From NCBI GenBank assembly GCA_029940235.1, contig JAOZRI010000047.1, positions 1 through 11,900 on the forward strand: a stretch of 11,900 nt of DNA, written 5' to 3'. Both the position numbers and the translations under genes were made by a program. Within the stretch, counting starts at the first letter, position 1; each line of letters opens with the position of its first letter. Under the pieces are notes generated by a model that was not told the DNA's origin, made no database searches, and saw nothing but the letters and a program-made list of their open reading frames with translations. Shown piece by piece: positions 3,451-11,228 of the stretch. Origin of the DNA: Desulfobacula sp. Lineage in GTDB: Bacteria > Desulfobacterota > Desulfobacteria > Desulfobacterales > Desulfobacteraceae.

Positions 3451-5562
3451 ATGGCAGCAGTTGAAACAGGTTTTTTAGCAGGAGTAAAAAGAGAGTCTTC
3501 AGATATACTGATGGTTGTTGCCTTTATTGGTATTCTCATGGCAATGATCCTGCCTTTGCATCCCATTATTCTTGACTTTTTCCTTGCTTTGAATATCTCC
3601 TTTGCCATTGTTGTATTAATTACAACTATGTACACAACAGCTCCACTAGAGTTTGCTATTTTCCCATCACTTCTGCTTGTGTTGACACTGTTTCGTCTCT
3701 CTTTAAATGTTGCATCCACACGATTAATTCTTTTACACGGCAGTGAAGGTCAGAGTGCAGCAGGGTCTATCATTCAATCTTTTGGCAGCTTTGTTGTGGG
3801 TGGAAACTATGTTGTAGGTCTGGTTATTTTTATTATTCTTGTTTTGATCAATTTCATGGTTATTACCAAAGGTGCAGGTAGAATAGCAGAAGTTGCCGCT
3901 AGATTTACCCTTGATGCCATGCCTGGAAAACAGATGGCCATTGATGCTGATCTTAATGCAGGCATGATAGATGAAGTTGAGGCAGGTGAAAGACGTGCCG
4001 CAATTGCCAGGGAATCAGAGTTTCATGGTGCCATGGATGGTGCTTCAAAATTTGTCCGCGGGGATGCCATTGCAGGTATTGTAATAACACTGATTAATAT
4101 AGTGGGTGGTTTTGTAATTGGTGTACTTCAGCAGGGTATGGAGATGAAGGAAGCTTTGACAAACTATACTCTTTTAACTGTTGGCGATGGTCTTGTATCA
4201 CAGATCCCGGCTCTTTTGATTTCAGCAGCAGCAGGTCTTCTTGTCTCAAGATCCGGTTCCAACATGAAAATGGGTCAGGAGTTTGCAAAACATCTTCTTG
4301 CAAGCTCAACTCCGGTTTTTATAGGGTCAGTAATTATTTTTTGCATGGGACTTGTACCGGGTCTGCCATCCATACCATTTATGACTCTTGGACTGGTCTT
4401 AGGAACCCTTGCATGGTATTTTTTACGACAGGAAGAGACAAGTGAAGAGGAAAAACTTGCAGATGAGCAGGCACAGATAGAAGAGGAGGCAGCAGGTGCT
4501 CCTGAAGATGTTGATCATCTTTTAAATCTTGATACCATTGAACTTGAGGTCGGCTATGGTTTGATTCCCCTTGTGGATAAACAGCAGGATGGCACTCTGC
4601 TTGGAAGAATCAGGGCAATCAGAAGACAATTTGCCACGGAAATGGGGATTATTATTCCTCCCATTCACATCCGGGACAATCTGAATTTAAATCCCGCACA
4701 ATACAGGCTTATGATAAAAGGAGTGGAAGCTGCCGGTACCGAGTTAATGGTAAATCATTTTCTTGCCATGGATCCTGGAGGAACAGCCCAGGATATTGAG
4801 GGCATAGATACCACAGAACCAGCATTTAACCTGCCGGCAAAATGGATTCCCATGGATCGTGAAGAGGAGGCAAAATTTGCAGGATATACAGTTGTGGATA
4901 ATTCAACGGTTATTGCGACACACTTGACTGAAATTGTTAGAAACAATGCCCATGATCTTCTTGGAAGACAGGATGTTCAACATCTTCTCGATAATCTTGC
5001 CAAATCTAATCCAAAAGCTGTGGAAGAGCTGGTGCCAGGTCTTTTAAGTCTTGGCGTTGTACAAAAAGTACTTCAAAATTTATTAAGGGAGCGAATTTCC
5101 ATAAGAGATATGCTTACAATTGTAGAAACTCTCGCTGATTTTGCACCAATGGGAAAAGATCCAGACCTTTTAACTGAATATGTAAGGCAGAGATTGGCAA
5201 AAGGCATGCTTGTTCCCTATCTTCAGGAGGGAAAGGTATTGCAGGTAACAACCCTTGATAGAGAAATAGAAGAGATATTAACTAAAAATATAAGGCATAC
5301 TGAACATGGATCATATCTGACCCTTGATCCGGGCCTGGTGGAAGAGATAGTTCAGGCAGTTTCAAAAGAGGTGCAACAGCAGGTAGCTCTTAATGCACAA
5401 CCTGTCATCATGACATCGCCGAGTCTGCGCCGTCATGTCAGAAAACTCATTGAGCCAACTCTACCCACTGTGATGGTTGTATCCCATGCAGAGATAGTGG
5501 ATGATATTAATTTACAGGCAAGTGGAAAGGTAAGTTTAATAAATGAACAAGAGAATCTATAG
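3451..5562 (+). CDS. flhA: Flagellar export gate protein FlhA
   Basis: FlhA forms the nonameric ring of the flagellar type III export apparatus. Its cytoplasmic domain docks chaperone-substrate complexes and its membrane part uses the proton motive force. The 703-residue length fits the family (E. coli FlhA is 692). The N-terminal half (to about residue 330) has eight predicted membrane segments. It contains the FHIPEP-family hallmarks FRLSLNVASTRLIL (about 81-94) and GKQMAIDADLNAG (159-171), the latter in the conserved cytoplasmic loop. An acidic linker rich in Glu at about 330-350 leads to the C-terminal domain (about 360-695), which is intact, with LIPLVDKQQDG, a RRQFATEMGIIIPPIHIRDN-like segment and MVVSHAEI near the end. 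The start has GGAG at 3442-3445. The last 20 bases overlap the start of flhF. Confidence 0.98.
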   Translation: MAAVETGFLAGVKRESSDILMVVAFIGILMAMILPLHPIILDFFLALNISFAIVVLITTMYTTAPLEFAIFPSLLLVLTLFRLSLNVASTRLILLHGSEGQSAAGSIIQSFGSFVVGGNYVVGLVIFIILVLINFMVITKGAGRIAEVAARFTLDAMPGKQMAIDADLNAGMIDEVEAGERRAAIARESEFHGAMDGASKFVRGDAIAGIVITLINIVGGFVIGVLQQGMEMKEALTNYTLLTVGDGLVSQIPALLISAAAGLLVSRSGSNMKMGQEFAKHLLASSTPVFIGSVIIFCMGLVPGLPSIPFMTLGLVLGTLAWYFLRQEETSEEEKLADEQAQIEEEAAGAPEDVDHLLNLDTIELEVGYGLIPLVDKQQDGTLLGRIRAIRRQFATEMGIIIPPIHIRDNLNLNPAQYRLMIKGVEAAGTELMVNHFLAMDPGGTAQDIEGIDTTEPAFNLPAKWIPMDREEEAKFAGYTVVDNSTVIATHLTEIVRNNAHDLLGRQDVQHLLDNLAKSNPKAVEELVPGLLSLGVVQKVLQNLLRERISIRDMLTIVETLADFAPMGKDPDLLTEYVRQRLAKGMLVPYLQEGKVLQVTTLDREIEEILTKNIRHTEHGSYLTLDPGLVEEIVQAVSKEVQQQVALNAQPVIMTSPSLRRHVRKLIEPTLPTVMVVSHAEIVDDINLQASGKVSLINEQENL

Positions 5563-6679
5563 AGCTGAAAATATTCAATTAGCCATTGCAAATATTAAAC
5601 AGGAGCTTGGATCCGATGCCATGATTCTAAGTACCCGGAAAATTGCACCAAAATCCATTGGCTCATATTCAAAACGTGCAAGAACAATGTTTGAGGTTGA
5701 AGCATCTGTTCCAGAATATTCAGATGTGAAAACTGAATATAACAAAGCAGGCCTGGGAATTAATCAAAAAGAGCTTACTGATTCCATTAAAGATGATATT
5801 GCTGATATCAAGGATATGATTTCAATTGCCAGTTTTGGAAACGGGATGAAGAATATGGTCTGCAACCATTTTGAGTCTGTTGGCATTCTGGCTTCTCTTT
5901 TGCGGGCAGGTATCAGTGAAGCAGGGTCAAGTTCCATAATAAAAAAAGCAAGTTTATCCATGGATAAAAATAGTGTCAAAGGTTCAAATATTAAATCCTT
6001 AAAAAAATATGTGATGCAGCAATGTCTTAATCAAATTAGCACAAAAGATTTCTTTAATAGAGATAACAGCTCAGGAGTTCCCCATGTGGCAGCTTTTGTG
6101 GGTCCCACGGGAGTCGGTAAAACAACTACTATTGCAAAACTTGCAGCTCTGCTGACATTTGAAAGAAAAATGAAAATTGGTCTGATTTCCATTGATAATT
6201 ATCGGGTGGGTGCATTTGAACAGCTAAAAGCTTATGCCTCCATTATGGGATTGCTGTGTGTGCCTGCATTCAGCTCTCAAGACCTAACTTGCGCTCTGGA
6301 CAGAATGAAATCGATGGACATGGTATTGATAGATACTGCAGGGCACAGCCACTTTGATAAAGTAAAAATTGATGAAATATTGAAATTAATTCATACAGAT
6401 TTTGCGATTTCTACTCATTTGGTCTTGAGTGTTACCTCTGAATCTACTATTATGAAAGATGCAGCAGCAGCTTTTTGTGCTTTTAATCCTGATACGCTTG
6501 TATTTACAAAGATTGATGAAACAAAAAGATGTGGTAAGATACTGGATCAGGTAAGTGATATTAAACTGCCTGTTTCTCTGATAACAAATGGTCAAAGAGT
6601 CCCTGAGGATTTAATTGTACCGGACAGAGGAAAACTGCTCAAGATAATTCTGGGCAATGGACAACAGGTTGTTGCATAA
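5543..6679 (+). CDS. flhF: Flagellar placement GTPase FlhF
   Basis: FlhF is an SRP-type GTPase that recruits early flagellar components to the assembly site, typically the cell pole, and is antagonised by FlhG. The 378-residue protein starts with the family N-terminus (RIYRAENIQLAIANIKQELG, then DAMILSTRKI). It has a variable middle region and an NG GTPase domain from about residue 150. Visible GTPase motifs are the P-loop GPTGVGKT (187-194), the SRP-like DNYRVGAFEQLK (about 219-230), DTAG (264-267), TKID (322-325) and a C-terminal NGQRVPEDL. The usual Arg after DTAG is His here (DTAGHSHF), while other motifs look normal. The ATG lies inside the end of flhA (20-base overlap), so translation is probably coupled. 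Confidence 0.96.
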   Translation: MNKRIYRAENIQLAIANIKQELGSDAMILSTRKIAPKSIGSYSKRARTMFEVEASVPEYSDVKTEYNKAGLGINQKELTDSIKDDIADIKDMISIASFGNGMKNMVCNHFESVGILASLLRAGISEAGSSSIIKKASLSMDKNSVKGSNIKSLKKYVMQQCLNQISTKDFFNRDNSSGVPHVAAFVGPTGVGKTTTIAKLAALLTFERKMKIGLISIDNYRVGAFEQLKAYASIMGLLCVPAFSSQDLTCALDRMKSMDMVLIDTAGHSHFDKVKIDEILKLIHTDFAISTHLVLSVTSESTIMKDAAAAFCAFNPDTLVFTKIDETKRCGKILDQVSDIKLPVSLITNGQRVPEDLIVPDRGKLLKIILGNGQQVVA

Positions 6680-6739: not shown

Positions 6740-6764
6740 ATGAAAAAAATGAGGTAATATATTG
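6740..6764 (+). promoter_or_regulatory. Translation start element of flhG, deciding a TTG start
   Basis: GAGGT at 6751-6755 is spaced 6 bases from the TTG at 6762 and supports that start. It lies inside the 16-base string ATGAAAAAAATGAGGT (6740-6755), which recurs exactly before the gene at 8471 with the same spacing. The string itself opens a five-codon frame (MKKMR, stop TAA at 6755-6757) that ends just before the real start, so terminating ribosomes could re-initiate there. The ribosome-binding role is well supported. Use of the mini-frame is speculation. Confidence 0.6.
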
Positions 6765-7649
6765 AATCAGGCACAAGGCCTTCACAAAGCCGTTAAAGAC
6801 CGGGCACTTTCAAGGAAAAAAGCAAATATGTCATCAAACAATCTTCCAAGAGTTATTGCAGTTACCAGCGGTAAGGGAGGTGTCGGTAAAACCAATCTGG
6901 TGGGTAATATGGCTGTTGCCTTAAGTCGTATGGGTAAAAGGGTGGTTATCATTGATGCTGATGTGGGACTTGCCAATATTGACATTATTTTTAATTTAAG
7001 ACCTGAATATAATATCAGGCATATTATCAATGCCCAAAAAACATTGAACCAGGTCATGGTAACTTCAGAACATGGTATCAAAATTCTCCCTGGAGGTTCT
7101 GGATTCGCCGATTTAACTCAACTTGGCGAAGGTGAAAAACTCAATCTTTTAAGTGAATTTGAAACTCTCTCTGACCAGGCCGATATTATTTTTGTTGACA
7201 CAGGGGCTGGAATTTCATCAAATGTATTATATTTTAACTCTGCCTGTGATGAATGTATTGTTATTGCAACAAGAGAACCCACATCCATTACCGATGCCTA
7301 TGCAATGATAAAAGTTTTATCATCGGATTATGGAACCAGATATTTTAAACTGATTGTTAACATGGTGGATTCCGAAGCCCAGGCAAAAAATGTCTATGCA
7401 AGTTTAAGTGCAGCACTTGATAAATACCTGAACAATGTTGTATTGGAATATACAGGATATATCCCTTTTGACAGGAAATTACAGGCAGCAGTGCAAAAAA
7501 GAGGACTTGTTATGGATAGTTTTCCTGACTCAGTGGCTGCTAAAGCCATTGAAGATATCTCGTTAAATCTTGGGAATACCCCTGCAAGAAGTAATGCAGA
7601 TGGGAGCTTAACATTTTTTATGAACAAGGTATTTCAAGCAGCAGATTAA
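6762..7649 (+). CDS. flhG: Flagellar number regulator FlhG (MinD-like ATPase, also called FleN/YlxH)
   Basis: FlhG is a MinD/ParA-family ATPase that limits flagellar number and stimulates the FlhF GTPase through an N-terminal helix. The 295-residue product has the deviant Walker A motif GKGGVGKTN (37-45), the switch segment DADVGLANID (65-74) and DTGAG (146-150). A TTG start is chosen because GAGGT at 6751-6755 lies 6 bases upstream. It also yields the N-terminus MNQAQGLHKAV, matching the DQAxxLR activation motif of FlhG. The next ATG (codon 23) would remove that motif. The 82 bases between flhF and this gene carry no clear sigma-70, sigma-54 or sigma-28 promoter that I can defend. The C-terminus (TFFMNKVFQAAD) resembles the short membrane-targeting tail of MinD-like proteins. 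Confidence 0.95.
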   Translation: MNQAQGLHKAVKDRALSRKKANMSSNNLPRVIAVTSGKGGVGKTNLVGNMAVALSRMGKRVVIIDADVGLANIDIIFNLRPEYNIRHIINAQKTLNQVMVTSEHGIKILPGGSGFADLTQLGEGEKLNLLSEFETLSDQADIIFVDTGAGISSNVLYFNSACDECIVIATREPTSITDAYAMIKVLSSDYGTRYFKLIVNMVDSEAQAKNVYASLSAALDKYLNNVVLEYTGYIPFDRKLQAAVQKRGLVMDSFPDSVAAKAIEDISLNLGNTPARSNADGSLTFFMNKVFQAAD

Positions 7650-7698: not shown

Positions 7699-8448
7699 AT
7701 GAAAGGCAAAAACTGGGCAAATAAAGAGGAGTGGGAATTGTGGCGTGAAAACTCCATTATTGAATACTCTTATCTTGTAAAGCATATTGCTGCAAGATTT
7801 GCCATGCGCCTTCCTTCCACTGTTTTTTTTGATGAATTGGTTTCAGCAGGATCTCTTGGTCTTATTGATGCCGTGGATAAATTTGACCATTCAAAACATG
7901 TCACTCTTAAAACCTATGCCCAGTACAGGATTAAAGGAGCAATCCTTGATGAGTTGAGAAGCATGGATCCCTATTCAAGATCCATGAGAAAAAAAATTCA
8001 GGATATTACCAGAGCAGTCAAGACAATTGAAGAGAGAAAAGGTTCAACTGCCATGGATGAAGAGATATGCAAAGAGCTTGGCGTAACTCTGGAAGGCTAT
8101 TATGATATGCTTACAGGCATTCATGGTGCATCTGTTTTAAGTCTTGATGAATTCATAAAAACAAAGAAAAACGATTCATATTCAAATACAAGATTCCAGG
8201 CTGCCATTGAAGGAGGAGATAATCCTGCTGTCTGTTTTGACAAAGAAGAATTTAAATTTGTCCTGGCAAAAACCATTAAACTTTTGAGTAAAAAAGAGCA
8301 ATTGGTGGTGTCTTTGTATTATTATGATGAATTGACATTAAAAGAGATTGGTGCAGTCCTCTCTTTGACAGAATCGCGTATATGCCAGATTCATACCGCA
8401 ATTCTTGTGAAACTGAAAGTAAGGCTAAAAGATTACTTTAATGATTGA
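7699..8448 (+). CDS. fliA: Flagellar sigma factor FliA (sigma-28)
   Basis: FliA directs RNA polymerase to late flagellar and chemotaxis genes and is normally held by FlgM until the hook is complete. The 249-residue product has the expected domains. Region 2 spans about residues 19-95, with DELVSAGSLGLIDAVDKFD and KTYAQYRIKGAILDELRSMD. Region 3 spans about 96-170. Region 4 spans about 195-247, with the helix-turn-helix LKEIGAVLSLTESRICQIH at about 214-232. The start is not certain. The ATG at 7699 has only a distant AGGGA (7678-7682, 16 bases away). The in-frame TTG at 7738 (codon 14) has a strong GAGGAG at 7726-7731 with a 6-base spacer, and would give a 236-residue protein that still contains all conserved regions. 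The gene sits 49 bases after flhG, as in many Deltaproteobacteria and Pseudomonas relatives. Confidence 0.95.
   Translation: MKGKNWANKEEWELWRENSIIEYSYLVKHIAARFAMRLPSTVFFDELVSAGSLGLIDAVDKFDHSKHVTLKTYAQYRIKGAILDELRSMDPYSRSMRKKIQDITRAVKTIEERKGSTAMDEEICKELGVTLEGYYDMLTGIHGASVLSLDEFIKTKKNDSYSNTRFQAAIEGGDNPAVCFDKEEFKFVLAKTIKLLSKKEQLVVSLYYYDELTLKEIGAVLSLTESRICQIHTAILVKLKVRLKDYFND
7726..7740 (+). promoter_or_regulatory. Internal ribosome-binding site and possible alternative TTG start of fliA
   Basis: GAGGAG at 7726-7731 precedes an in-frame TTG at 7738-7740 by 6 bases. This is a better initiation signal than that of the ATG at 7699. Starting here removes 13 residues (MKGKNWANKEEWE), which lie before the first conserved sigma region. 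Many sigma-28 proteins begin at about this point. Either or both starts could be used. Confidence 0.4.
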
Positions 8449-8473
8449 ATGAAAAAAATGAGGTTCTCAAATG
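8449..8473 (+). promoter_or_regulatory. Translation start element of the FliL-like gene (second copy of the 16-base string)
   Basis: GAGGT at 8460-8464 lies 6 bases before the ATG at 8471. The string ATGAAAAAAATGAGGT at 8449-8464 is identical to that at 6740-6755 and starts right after the fliA stop codon. Here the embedded frame reads MKKMRFSNV and stops at 8476-8478, overlapping the real start. Confidence 0.6.
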
Positions 8474-10348
8474 TCTGATCCAAGCATAGAAGAAGATAGT
8501 TTAATATCCCAGGGTGATATTGATAAACTTTTAGAGTCATCTTCCATTGAAGAAGCAGAAGACAAACTTACCTCAAATTCAGACTCAAATGATTCTAACG
8601 ATGTTGAAGAACTTGGTGAACTCTCCCAGGACGATATTGATGCTCTTATGAATGGCAATATATCTGACCCGGAGGGGGAAGACGATGCAGGAGAACTTTC
8701 CCAGGATGATATTGATAAGATGATGAATTCAAATACATCTGATTCTGATGATGATCTCGATTATGACGATGATGATATGGAGTTGATCTCCCAGGACGAT
8801 ATTGATTCTCTTATGAATTCCAGTGAACCGGATGAGCCTCCAGATGTTGCAGAGAATGAAGATGCACAAGAGGCTGGTTCAGAGGATGATGCAGGAGAAC
8901 TTTCCCAGGATGATATTGATAAGATGATGAATTCAAATGCATCGGATGTCCAGGAAGTGGAAGAGGATGAAGCTGGAGAACTATCTCAAGAGGATATTGA
9001 TAAAATGATGAATGCCGGCTCAGATGATGAGCCGTCTTCATCTGGTGATGACGAAGAACTTGAGATGATTTCCCAAGATGATATACGTAATCTGATAAAC
9101 CATGAGATAGAGGATAATAAAGAGTCTTTAGCAGACACAAACAAAGCAAACCCATCCAGTGGCAACCAGCCAGATAAAGAAAACCCTGACCTTAATGGTG
9201 AAGATAAAGCAGAGGCATCTGACAAGGGCGAGGAAATAGTTGAAGAAAAAGTAGAAGAGCCTATGGCAAGTGTAACAATAGAAGAAGATAATTCTATTAT
9301 TGAAGAATCTGAAGCCGTTGATGTCACAGAATGCCTTGTGACCCAGGAAACAATAGATGACTTGATAAAAAAATTTGGCAGTGAACCTGATCCCGAAGCT
9401 GAGCCTGCACCGGAACCGGTAATCTTAGATGAAGAGCCAATCCCTGATTCAGAAGAGCAGATCTCATCAGAAGATGAACTGTCTGCTGATTCTGATTTAC
9501 TTGACATGGATGGGGAAGATGAAGATATTGCCCAGGAAGAGATTGATGCTCTTTTACTTGATTCTGACGATGATGAAGATTATGAGGAAGATGACGATCT
9601 TCTTATTTCCCAGGATGATATTGATACTCTTTTAATGGCAGCAGATCAGGAAGATGAAGATGTCCTTGGTGATTTAATGGATGAAGAGTCTGATGATGAC
9701 ATGGAAGAAGATTTAAATGATGAAGTCATATCAGATGAGGATGAAGATTTTCAAGGGGATGACGAAGATCAGGTTGTCCTTGAAGATGATGACAGTGAAG
9801 AGGTGGCAGATGCTGAACCCGAAACTGCAGCAAAGACCAAATGGTATAAATCAAAACTTGTCATTGCCTGTGCATCTGGATTGATTGCCATGGGTATTAT
9901 TGTCCCTGCAGTATATTTTTTCTTTTTTTCAGGTGATCCAGGCCAGCCCCAGAATAATATGCAGCAATATGCTGTTGAAGAATCAAGGGCAATCACAGTA
10001 GAGACAGTTGATATCAATATTAAAAGTCAGGGAGATATAAATCAAGCAGGAAATATGGTGCTGGAAAATTTTGTTATACTTGCATCTGATCAGTCAAAAG
10101 ATATGGCCTATGTCACTGTAGATATCTCAATTGATTATTCAGATCAGAGAGCTTATCATGAAATTCAGAATAATTTATCATTTTATCGGGATTTGATTTA
10201 CGACTCCATAAATAAAAGCTTTGTTTCAGAAAAACGAGAAGAGATTACAGAGGCAGATATTCTATGGCAAGTTGAAACAAGTTTAAAAAAAGTATTACCC
10301 GGAACTTATATTAATCGGGTGAGCTTTAAATCTTTTAAAGCAAGTTAG
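8471..10348 (+). CDS. FliL-like membrane protein with ten FliM/FliN-type N-terminal peptide repeats
   Basis: This 625-residue protein has three parts. Residues 1-454 are extremely acidic (about four in ten residues are Asp or Glu, more near the end), predicted disordered, and carry ten motifs of the form (L/I)SQDDIDxLM. These begin at about residues 11, 51, 76, 106, 144, 171, 200, 290, 353 and 379. Residues 455-462 are basic (KTKWYKSK) and are followed by one membrane segment at about 463-486, so the N-terminus should be cytoplasmic. Residues 505-625 resemble the FliL domain: MVLENFVIL (like LDxFxVNL), AYVTVDISIDY, a helix with FYRDLIYDSINKSF, EITEADILWQVETSLKKVL and a closing INRVSFKSF. FliL is normally about 150-200 residues with a short cytoplasmic tail, and forms a ring around the stator. 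The motif matches the FliM start (E. coli MGDSILSQAEIDALLNG), which binds CheY-P. Function is unknown. The FliL assignment is moderate, and the motif similarity is clear by eye. Confidence 0.85.
   Translation: MSDPSIEEDSLISQGDIDKLLESSSIEEAEDKLTSNSDSNDSNDVEELGELSQDDIDALMNGNISDPEGEDDAGELSQDDIDKMMNSNTSDSDDDLDYDDDDMELISQDDIDSLMNSSEPDEPPDVAENEDAQEAGSEDDAGELSQDDIDKMMNSNASDVQEVEEDEAGELSQEDIDKMMNAGSDDEPSSSGDDEELEMISQDDIRNLINHEIEDNKESLADTNKANPSSGNQPDKENPDLNGEDKAEASDKGEEIVEEKVEEPMASVTIEEDNSIIEESEAVDVTECLVTQETIDDLIKKFGSEPDPEAEPAPEPVILDEEPIPDSEEQISSEDELSADSDLLDMDGEDEDIAQEEIDALLLDSDDDEDYEEDDDLLISQDDIDTLLMAADQEDEDVLGDLMDEESDDDMEEDLNDEVISDEDEDFQGDDEDQVVLEDDDSEEVADAEPETAAKTKWYKSKLVIACASGLIAMGIIVPAVYFFFFSGDPGQPQNNMQQYAVEESRAITVETVDINIKSQGDINQAGNMVLENFVILASDQSKDMAYVTVDISIDYSDQRAYHEIQNNLSFYRDLIYDSINKSFVSEKREEITEADILWQVETSLKKVLPGTYINRVSFKSFKAS
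8684..8734 (+). repeat. 51-base perfect direct repeat, copy 1
   Basis: The bases from GATGCAGGAGAACTTTCCC to GATGAATTCAAAT are identical to those at 8888-8938, 204 bases (68 codons) downstream and in the same frame. It encodes DAGELSQDDIDKMMNSN, the third motif of the array. Identity includes third codon positions, which points to a recent duplication. Confidence 0.9.
8888..8938 (+). repeat. 51-base perfect direct repeat, copy 2
   Basis: This is the second copy of the 51-base repeat at 8684-8734 and encodes the fifth motif of the array. Both flanks diverge from copy 1 within a few bases, apart from short similar acidic codons. Confidence 0.9.
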
Positions 10349-10362
10349 AGAGGTTTTTAATA

Positions 10363-10665
10363 ATGACCACTGTACCTGGACATAATATTGTTATCCAACA
10401 GTCCGGGGCTGCCCAGGAGCTGATACATCAGACCACCACCCCTAAACCTTCTCCGGAACAGGCGGCAGCACAGCAGCAGGCCAATGCACTTGCCCAGGGC
10501 ACGACAGTCCAGGGGACAGAAGAGTCAGAAAAACTTAAATCTAAAAAAGAGAAAGAGGCATTAAGAAGAAAAAAATTATTGGAAGAGGCAAAAAAAAAGA
10601 GAAAGCAAAAGGAACTGGACCTGGATCCTGACGCTCCAGGAAGGCTGCTGGATACAACTATATGA
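10363..10665 (+). CDS. Small disordered basic protein of a flagellar cluster, unknown function
   Basis: I do not recognise a named family with confidence. The 100-residue product has no membrane segment. Residues 1-50 are rich in Gln, Ala and Thr. Residues 55-85 are rich in Lys, Glu and Arg (KKEKEALRRKKLLEEAKKKR) and probably form a charged helix. It ends in DPDAPGRLLDTTI. Short proteins with a charged helix and a C-terminal G-(R/H)-L-(L/I)-D tail recur, from memory, in flagellar clusters of Deltaproteobacteria. The ribosome-binding site AGAGAGG (10347-10353) overlaps the end of the preceding gene and sits 9 bases from the ATG. The stop TGA overlaps the next gene's ATG (ATGA at 10662-10665). 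Codon use matches the neighbours. It is very likely a real gene given the tight coupling on both sides. Confidence 0.8.
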   Translation: MTTVPGHNIVIQQSGAAQELIHQTTTPKPSPEQAAAQQQANALAQGTTVQGTEESEKLKSKKEKEALRRKKLLEEAKKKRKQKELDLDPDAPGRLLDTTI

Positions 10666-11228
10666 CAGAATCGTTTTCAATAGAATTTTGGATTGCAACA
10701 CTTTTTATTATTAATTTTATCGTTGTTGTTGTTTTATTTCTGTTTGTTAAAAGAGTTAATCGTCTTAATGTTAATTTAGATCATGCCCAGTCAAATCAAA
10801 ATGAGTATGACGAACGTTTTGAATACTCTGGGCAGGTTACAGATTCAACTGTAGATATAGTGGAAAGGCTTGAACCCCTTGTCAAAGAATCTCAAAAAAC
10901 TGCCCTGAGCTTTGATAAACAGATCAAAGAGAAAAAAAGATTAATCAAAGAGTTAAACGATGCCTTGGATTCGAGAATTATCAGTATTAATCTTCTTTTA
11001 TCCCGTTCAGACGTATTGCACAAAAAAATTCAGGAAAAGCAAAACCAGCCTGATTTAAATTTGTCTTCAAATGCTGTGTTTGATCAGCAAAATCAAATTA
11101 TTGAGATGTATAATCAAGATTATGATGTTAATTCCATTGCTCAAGAGTTGTCAATTCCCAAGGGCGAAGTTCTATTGGTAATTGATCTTAAAAAAAGATT
11201 TATGGCAATGGAGAAAAATGGTAGATGA
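10662..11228 (+). CDS. Membrane-anchored coiled-coil protein with HTH-like C-terminus (SwrB / DUF6115 / DUF2802-like)
   Basis: This 188-residue protein has one N-terminal membrane segment at about residues 9-29 followed by KRVNR, placing the rest in the cytoplasm. A long charged helix, probably coiled coil, runs from about 60 to 127. A small C-terminal domain at about 144-180 reads QIIEMYNQDYDVNSIAQELSI then PKGEVLLVIDLKKR. This C-terminal pattern (hydrophobic helix, short turn, IAxxLxIxKGEVxLxxxL) is shared by small membrane proteins in flagellar and chemotaxis clusters, such as SwrB of Bacillus and the DUF6115 and DUF2802 families. SwrB promotes activation of the flagellar export apparatus. 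The homology is judged by eye from layout and motif, so the family label is tentative. The gene overlaps both neighbours by 4 bases (ATGA), so it is firmly part of the operon. Confidence 0.85.
   Translation: MTESFSIEFWIATLFIINFIVVVVLFLFVKRVNRLNVNLDHAQSNQNEYDERFEYSGQVTDSTVDIVERLEPLVKESQKTALSFDKQIKEKKRLIKELNDALDSRIISINLLLSRSDVLHKKIQEKQNQPDLNLSSNAVFDQQNQIIEMYNQDYDVNSIAQELSIPKGEVLLVIDLKKRFMAMEKNGR

Follow-up and report, generated by a model that had tools for sequence, protein, structure and literature searches.

An 11,900-nt stretch of DNA from Desulfobacula sp. (assembly GCA_029940235.1, contig JAOZRI010000047.1, forward strand), hereafter the window, encodes a FliL-like protein, here called X, in which ten copies of a peptide resembling the N-terminus of FliM precede a single membrane helix. 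We propose that X may act as a membrane-anchored, multivalent mimic of the FliM N-terminus that concentrates phosphorylated CheY (CheY-P), and perhaps FlhG, at the motor or the pole. Judged from sequence and structure prediction, this proposal has about an even chance of being correct. It is built on the array itself, the conservation of its peptides, a FliL-like C-terminal domain, a conserved operon slot, and an Escherichia coli-type CheY encoded in the same genome. No description of this architecture was found in the published literature, a weak negative since the search was limited to Creative Commons-licensed PMC papers.

Architecture and family of the array protein

The X gene is a single unbroken reading frame of 625 residues. 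Its features on the window are as follows.

8471..10348, plus strand: X, array-bearing FliL paralogue, 625 amino acids (aa) (open reading frame (ORF) calling, family searches)
8471..9835, plus strand: acidic N-terminal region with the array, residues 1 to 455, mostly low-confidence and probably disordered (model, sequence composition)
8504..8533, plus strand: copy 1, ISQGDIDKLL
8621..8650, plus strand: copy 2, LSQDDIDALM
8696..8725, plus strand: copy 3, LSQDDIDKMM
8786..8815, plus strand: copy 4, ISQDDIDSLM
8900..8929, plus strand: copy 5, LSQDDIDKMM (surrounding 66 nt 94% identical to copy 3)
8981..9010, plus strand: copy 6, LSQEDIDKMM
9068..9097, plus strand: copy 7, ISQDDIRNLI (R replaces D)
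9338..9367, plus strand: copy 8, VTQETIDDLI, degenerate (Q292 and L298 invariant across 50 aligned members)
9527..9556, plus strand: copy 9, IAQEEIDALL, degenerate (I358, D359, and L362 invariant across 50 aligned members)
9605..9634, plus strand: copy 10, ISQDDIDTLL, followed by a well-conserved MAADQEDED
9839..9928, plus strand: single membrane helix, residues 457 to 486 (structure model)
10049..10345, plus strand: FliL/SPFH-like domain, residues 527 to 625 (structure model, fold and profile comparison)

The ten-copy array ahead of one membrane segment, already reported in a preliminary description of this DNA, was confirmed, with eight copies matching the strict pattern and copies 8 and 9 being degenerate. 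In shuffled sequences, composition alone predicted 0.00015 strict copies. Residues 1 to 455 carry a net charge of -165. In an AlphaFold2 model built from a 50-sequence alignment, each of the ten copies formed a short helix inside a low-confidence region, and residues 527 to 625 were modeled confidently (block predicted local distance difference test scores, pLDDT, of 72 to 93) in the order strand-strand-three helices-strand. Three lysine or arginine residues precede the membrane helix and none follows it, and from this charge bias the array is predicted to face the cytoplasm.

The preliminary description had also assigned a FliL-like domain to the C-terminus, which was supported by predicted fold and profile comparison but not by Pfam. 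X scored 11.7 bits against PF03748, below the gathering cutoff of 24.6, and none of 50 close members matched at an E value of 0.05; two distant members exceeded the cutoff. Assignment to FliL by Pfam alone failed, and the kinship was retained on profile and fold evidence. Comparison of the X family profile with that of canonical FliL (hhalign, membrane helix included) gave a probability of 97.8 and an E value of 8.2e-13 over 151 columns. The predicted C-terminal domain had a FliL/SPFH-like fold, with Helicobacter pylori FliL as the best match. A search of solved structures with the X family profile returned four chance low-complexity matches and no FliL, and a scan of X for the FliM domains PF02154 and PF01052 gave no match.

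X does not adjoin fliM or fliN; that place is taken by canonical fliL, and X comes after fliA. In same-family relatives, canonical fliL-fliM-fliN lies upstream of fliO wherever the fetched stretch extends that far. By gene order, with canonical fliL found ahead of fliM in relatives and X in a conserved slot elsewhere, X is classed as a FliL paralogue and not as the canonical FliL. A further FliL match in the same Desulfobacula genome (C381) lay in an ORF of 281 aa whose N-terminus is lipoprotein-like; the 2.8 kb examined showed no fliM.

Conservation and distribution

Conservation was scored with each position left free in turn over about 950 copies from 159 proteins, which are related and not independent. 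Position 6 was I, L, or V. Q8 was held in 97% of the copies, I11 in 99%, D12 in 92%, L14 in 91%, D10 in 90%, and S7 in 88%, with L or M at position 15 in 97%, and position 13 was free (2.94 bits). The CheY-FliM contact table of PMC3774744 includes L6, Q8, I11, the D12-K119 contact, L14, and L15, plus positions 3, 4, and 16. The core of this set (L6, Q8, I11, D12, L14, and L15) is matched by the array peptides. At the sequence level, the constrained positions are the core of the CheY contact set together with S7 and D10, positions 3, 4, and 16 being the exceptions.

The FliM-type identity given to the peptides at the outset was supported. FliN, named alongside FliM, is not the likely source: none of the FliN ORFs visible among the listed loci matches the motif pattern, and one (L100) begins with a partial motif. 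Separately, the FliN of a distant genome (L213, 7273-7923) has two FliM-type peptides in its N-terminal region.

A degenerate DNA motif scan of seven complete or near-complete genomes gave 64 matches, namely 40 in X, 7 in FliM (one each), and 17 elsewhere that were sorted by position alone. With 2 matches in the reversed-pattern control against these 17, genes other than X and FliM may contain single motifs. In the window's own genome, 7 of 11 matches fell in X and 4 elsewhere; two of the latter, in ORFs named by eye as glutamyl-tRNA reductase-like and aminopeptidase-like, were taken as chance. A search for FliM/FliN in this assembly (78.7% complete, contig starting at fliO) gave only a FliMN_C score of 12.7 bits, below the cutoff, and no PF02154 match; given these limits of the assembly, the FliM peptide of this genome was not observed.

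The array could also be a low-complexity acidic tail with no specific ligand, its repeats multiplied by slippage or duplication. Copies 3 and 5 do look like a recent duplication, given their 94% identity over 66 nt, and the exact-class copy number varies from 0 to 15 between relatives. In addition, core codons are nearly uniform in the window's gene (GAT in 8/8 for D10 and TCC in 7/8 for S7), so its copies alone do not show long selection. However, six positions are held at 88 to 99% over the related copies amid free linkers in many lineages, and the identity over 90 nt stays at or below 64% for every pair other than copies 3 and 5. We regard spread without a ligand as very improbable.

A survey for the same fusion, as suggested in the preliminary description, was positive. 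X homologues were found in 61 of 86 genomes of the same family and in 79 of a class sample of 242 genomes (the window's own included, the remainder at least 90% complete), these 79 including some non-array homologues. FliM was found in 138 genomes of the class sample and both proteins in 74 (Fisher p 1.5e-17, kinship ignored); CheW was present in 76 of the 79. Among 59 loci, carriers included Desulfospira joergensenii, Desulfobacter vibrioformis, D. latus, and Desulfamplus magnetovallimortis. Desulfobacula toluolica also carries a homologue, and Desulfoluna species have an X with few copies.

In a 92-row tree with long branches and a root that is not fixed, 46 X rows grouped apart from canonical FliL (support 100/95). 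A 38-row group (94/88) contained the array-bearing rows, which have 1 to 15 exact-class copies each, the one exception being a C-terminal fragment from an interrupted gene. Rows with no copies (families f6, f46, and f47) and one-copy rows (L086 and L087) fell outside this group, which suggests that the array was gained by a paralogue that already existed. Non-array homologues sit in the same operon slot as array-bearing X. The simplest story would be that a FliL duplicate took the slot after fliA and the array grew afterwards, with loss as the alternative while the root is not fixed.

Candidate ligands of the array

E. coli CheY was used as the query in 13 chosen genomes, including the window's own (G000). 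A CheY 53 to 61% identical to that of E. coli was found in 11 of them, comprising the window's own genome, nine other genomes with arrays, and the zero-copy G099, and was not found in G049 and the X-lacking G162. All 11 CheYs kept A90, K92, Y106, V108, and K109; K119 was kept in 11/11 (three read by eye) and K122 in 10/11. The five other receivers that were aligned (G002b, G055b, G049, G162, and G162b) each differed from E. coli-type CheY in at least two residues among positions 90, 95, 99, 106, 108, and 119. The docking of CheY suggested at the outset has conserved core contacts and a CheY with a matching face in the same genome on its side, but that suggestion overlooked FlhG, a second published ligand. 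Of the candidates, CheY-P ranks first as the main ligand, with about even odds.

The following mechanism is proposed. The FliL-like domain would set X either around the stators or at the pole that bears the flagellum, its tail reaching into the cytoplasm. Like the FliM peptide, each SQDDIDxLL copy would dock as a short helix on the alpha4-beta5-alpha5 face of CheY-P. There would be ten weak sites per chain, or about 100 per ring if X is decameric like known FliL rings. Such multivalent sites could raise the residence of CheY-P beside the C-ring and serve as an antenna or buffer through which switching is tuned.

Alternatively, the array may be a membrane dock for FlhG, a MinD-like ATPase that also makes use of the FliM N-terminus in assembling the C-ring (PMC12826062). 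In that case X, along with FlhF and a FipA-like protein, would trap FlhG or keep a store of it at the motor or pole and so determine how many flagella form and where. The genes concerned surround X in the window, in the order fliO-fliP-fliQ-fliR-flhB-flhA-flhF-flhG-fliA-X-H100-DUF2802-like.

5543..6679, plus strand: flhF (SRP54-type GTPase)
6762..7649, plus strand: flhG (MinD/ParA-type ATPase), candidate ligand of the array peptides
7699..8448, plus strand: fliA (sigma-28; TIGR02479)
10363..10665, plus strand: H100, conserved 100-aa protein (MTTVPGHN...), found in many same-family loci between X and the FipA-like gene
10662..11228, plus strand: FipA-like protein with an N-terminal hydrophobic stretch and a C-terminal DUF6115/DUF2802-like region

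flhG, two genes upstream of X here, was present in 42 of 45 X-called loci, and FipA, which the product of a gene near X resembles, is reported in PMC11620751 to bind FlhF. The FlhG dock also draws on a relict cluster in G049 (97% complete; L142, G049:C124:1-20000), which keeps fliF, fliG, and fliH (these three confirmed with Pfam), fliL, fliM with its peptide, fliN, flhF, flhG, X, and a DUF2802-like gene. X of this genome has 408 residues and five copies, four of them exact. Between the kept genes, the cluster is without the export gate genes (fliO-R, flhB, and flhA) and fliA, and searches of the assembly for FlhA, CheW, and E. coli-type CheY found none. FlhG thus stays a candidate ligand, and G049 counts against an exclusive role for CheY unless the loss was recent. 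A C-ring without an export gate would in itself be odd.

Against the FlhG dock, the most conserved positions coincide with core positions of the published table of CheY contacts, genomes with a zero-copy X likewise have flhF and flhG, and the G049 array is shorter than that of the window (5 versus 10 copies). We consider the dock possible but doubtful. As a ligand, FlhG would be next in line after CheY-P, at a tentative level of confidence, and both may bind.

Arrays of similar peptides were also found on other membrane proteins. Two of them (L199, 9092-11362, and L202, 24-1457) combine a zinc ribbon (ZitP-like; L199), a QDDIDALL array, a membrane helix, and a FliL-like domain; their genes adjoin gatB (neighbors confirmed with Pfam), and no flagellar gene was recognized in the stretch. 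Further arrays (L205, 7797-9755; L206; L207; L094, 3300-6173; L208, 7828-9120; and L203, 9995-10918) lie on immunoglobulin (Ig)/cadherin-type membrane proteins, a DUF3999 protein, and two proteins to which Pfam assigned nothing meaningful. For the 430-aa protein of L208, Pfam gave only a low-complexity Pup match. The preliminary description had named, as grounds for refutation, a motif that fails to bind CheY and matches instead an unrelated linear motif common in non-flagellar proteins; the arrays on unrelated membrane proteins touch on this condition.

These arrays bear on a further explanation, in which the array binds neither CheY-P nor FlhG and instead competes with FliM or serves it as an assembly chaperone or C-ring tether, or else recognizes a different CheY-like receiver. 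Each of the 13 genomes had 3 to 27 receiver matches (E 1e-12), and the contexts of the last copies of X (residues 290, 353, and 379) are conserved individually in the alignment of family members, as if their roles were distinct. On the other side, the FliM-binding face is found on E. coli-type CheY, and the five other receivers aligned, out of a larger number, differ. We judge this explanation unlikely; any ligand other than CheY-P or FlhG is improbable overall. A broader and rather speculative possibility is that arrays of FliM peptides anchored in the membrane are a device that has arisen repeatedly, in part by convergence. In Desulfobacterales, X would then make each stator ring an antenna of about 100 CheY-P (and FlhG) sites, coupling stator occupancy to switching or flagellar counting, and the Nitrospinota-type zinc-ribbon/FliL-like, DUF3999, and Ig/cadherin-type arrays would serve receivers likewise.

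Several points weigh against the proposal that X concentrates CheY-P at the motor. Contact positions 3, 4, and 16 are unconserved in the array (3.20, 2.63, and 3.09 bits), and S7 and D10 are conserved although they have no listed CheY contacts. FliM of the same genomes retains its own peptide, usually LSQDEVDSLL or close, and the difference between DDID in the array and DEVD in FliM means that ligand or affinity may differ. In the 11 CheYs, K91 is replaced by Q, and I95 and A99 are each replaced by V. Zero-copy homologues coexist with chemotaxis genes (e.g., in G095, G096, G099, and G101), so chemotaxis does not depend on the array. Similar arrays sit on unrelated membrane proteins, and in the stretches fetched for these no flagellar gene was seen. 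A periplasmic C-terminal domain and the formation of a ring are assumptions of the proposal. In addition to G049 (five copies), array-bearing G220 (two copies) had no CheW match; the third CheW-less genome, G094, belongs to zero-copy group f6. G128 and G131 have an X of one to three copies together with CheW, and a link between low copy number and missing chemotaxis genes is suggestive only.

CheZ was considered as an explanation and set aside. Its C-terminal peptide resembles the array peptide and binds the same CheY face. At an E value of 1e-3, matches were found in 18 of the 242 class genomes and in 11 of the 79 homologue-bearing genomes (9 over the cutoff), with none in the other 68, and no general link was apparent either way.

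Operon neighbors and known systems

The window gene order was found again among the listed loci of 20 same-family relatives, with inserted genes in some. Among the 45 X-called loci, fliA lay at most two genes away in 43 and a DUF2802-like gene in 42. No confident family was found for H100 in a domain search. The FipA-like gene scored 33.1 bits against PF19610 (DUF6115), over the cutoff of 27, and 22.7 bits against PF10975 (DUF2802), short of the cutoff of 33.5.

Short FlhB C-terminal-like genes (about 90 to 100 aa), which we take to be of the FlhX type, lie downstream of X at L073, L074, L080, L088, L091, L096, L098, and L143; that of L143 matched Pfam Bac_export_2. Insertions between or within fliP-flhB/flhA were seen in three flagellar clusters (L056 of G021, L063 of G050, and L055 of G014), and G021 also has an interrupted X gene. 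In G060 (C1 1196585-1198999, L052), fliM is split into two pieces about 1.8 kb apart by what looks like an insertion, and X is intact.

The proposal touches on three questions: the way in which CheY-P arrives and is retained at the motor, the influence of stator load on switching, and the counting of flagella by FlhG. Stator recruitment has been described as promoting CheY-P binding (PMC8440544). Ten docking peptides on a FliL domain would link all three questions in one natural protein. The array is a deletable part, and natural versions with 0, 1 to 2, and 10 to 15 copies allow comparison.

Among known systems, CheZ has a single peptide copy on a phosphatase, in contrast to the array on X. 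FipA, a DUF2802 membrane protein that scaffolds FlhF and, as described in PMC11620751, binds it, is encoded directly after the flhA-flhF-flhG-fliA operon in gammaproteobacteria, and the FipA-like gene lies two genes downstream of X; neither FipA nor the polar factors HubP/FimV were found to share a domain with X. FliY of Bacillus, Helicobacter, and Campylobacter, with its EIDAL motifs, is likewise a second peptide-bearing protein in some lineages, but it is a FliN-like C-ring protein, and passages of PMC12826062 and PMC6946799 on it describe no FliY array. With the CheY/FlhG-binding peptide of FliM (EIDAL motif), the array shares the ten-residue core and the core contact residues; unlike FliM, X carries many copies on a membrane protein, has no FliM/SPOA domain, and reads DDID instead of DEVD. 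X and FliL (PF03748; H. pylori 7sgn, FliL fragments 6ahp/6ahq) have in common the C-terminal fold, the preceding single membrane helix, and a flagellar operon. X differs in its 455-residue N-terminal tail with the peptide array, its score below the Pfam cutoff, and its slot after fliA, whereas canonical fliL precedes fliM, and the two coexist.
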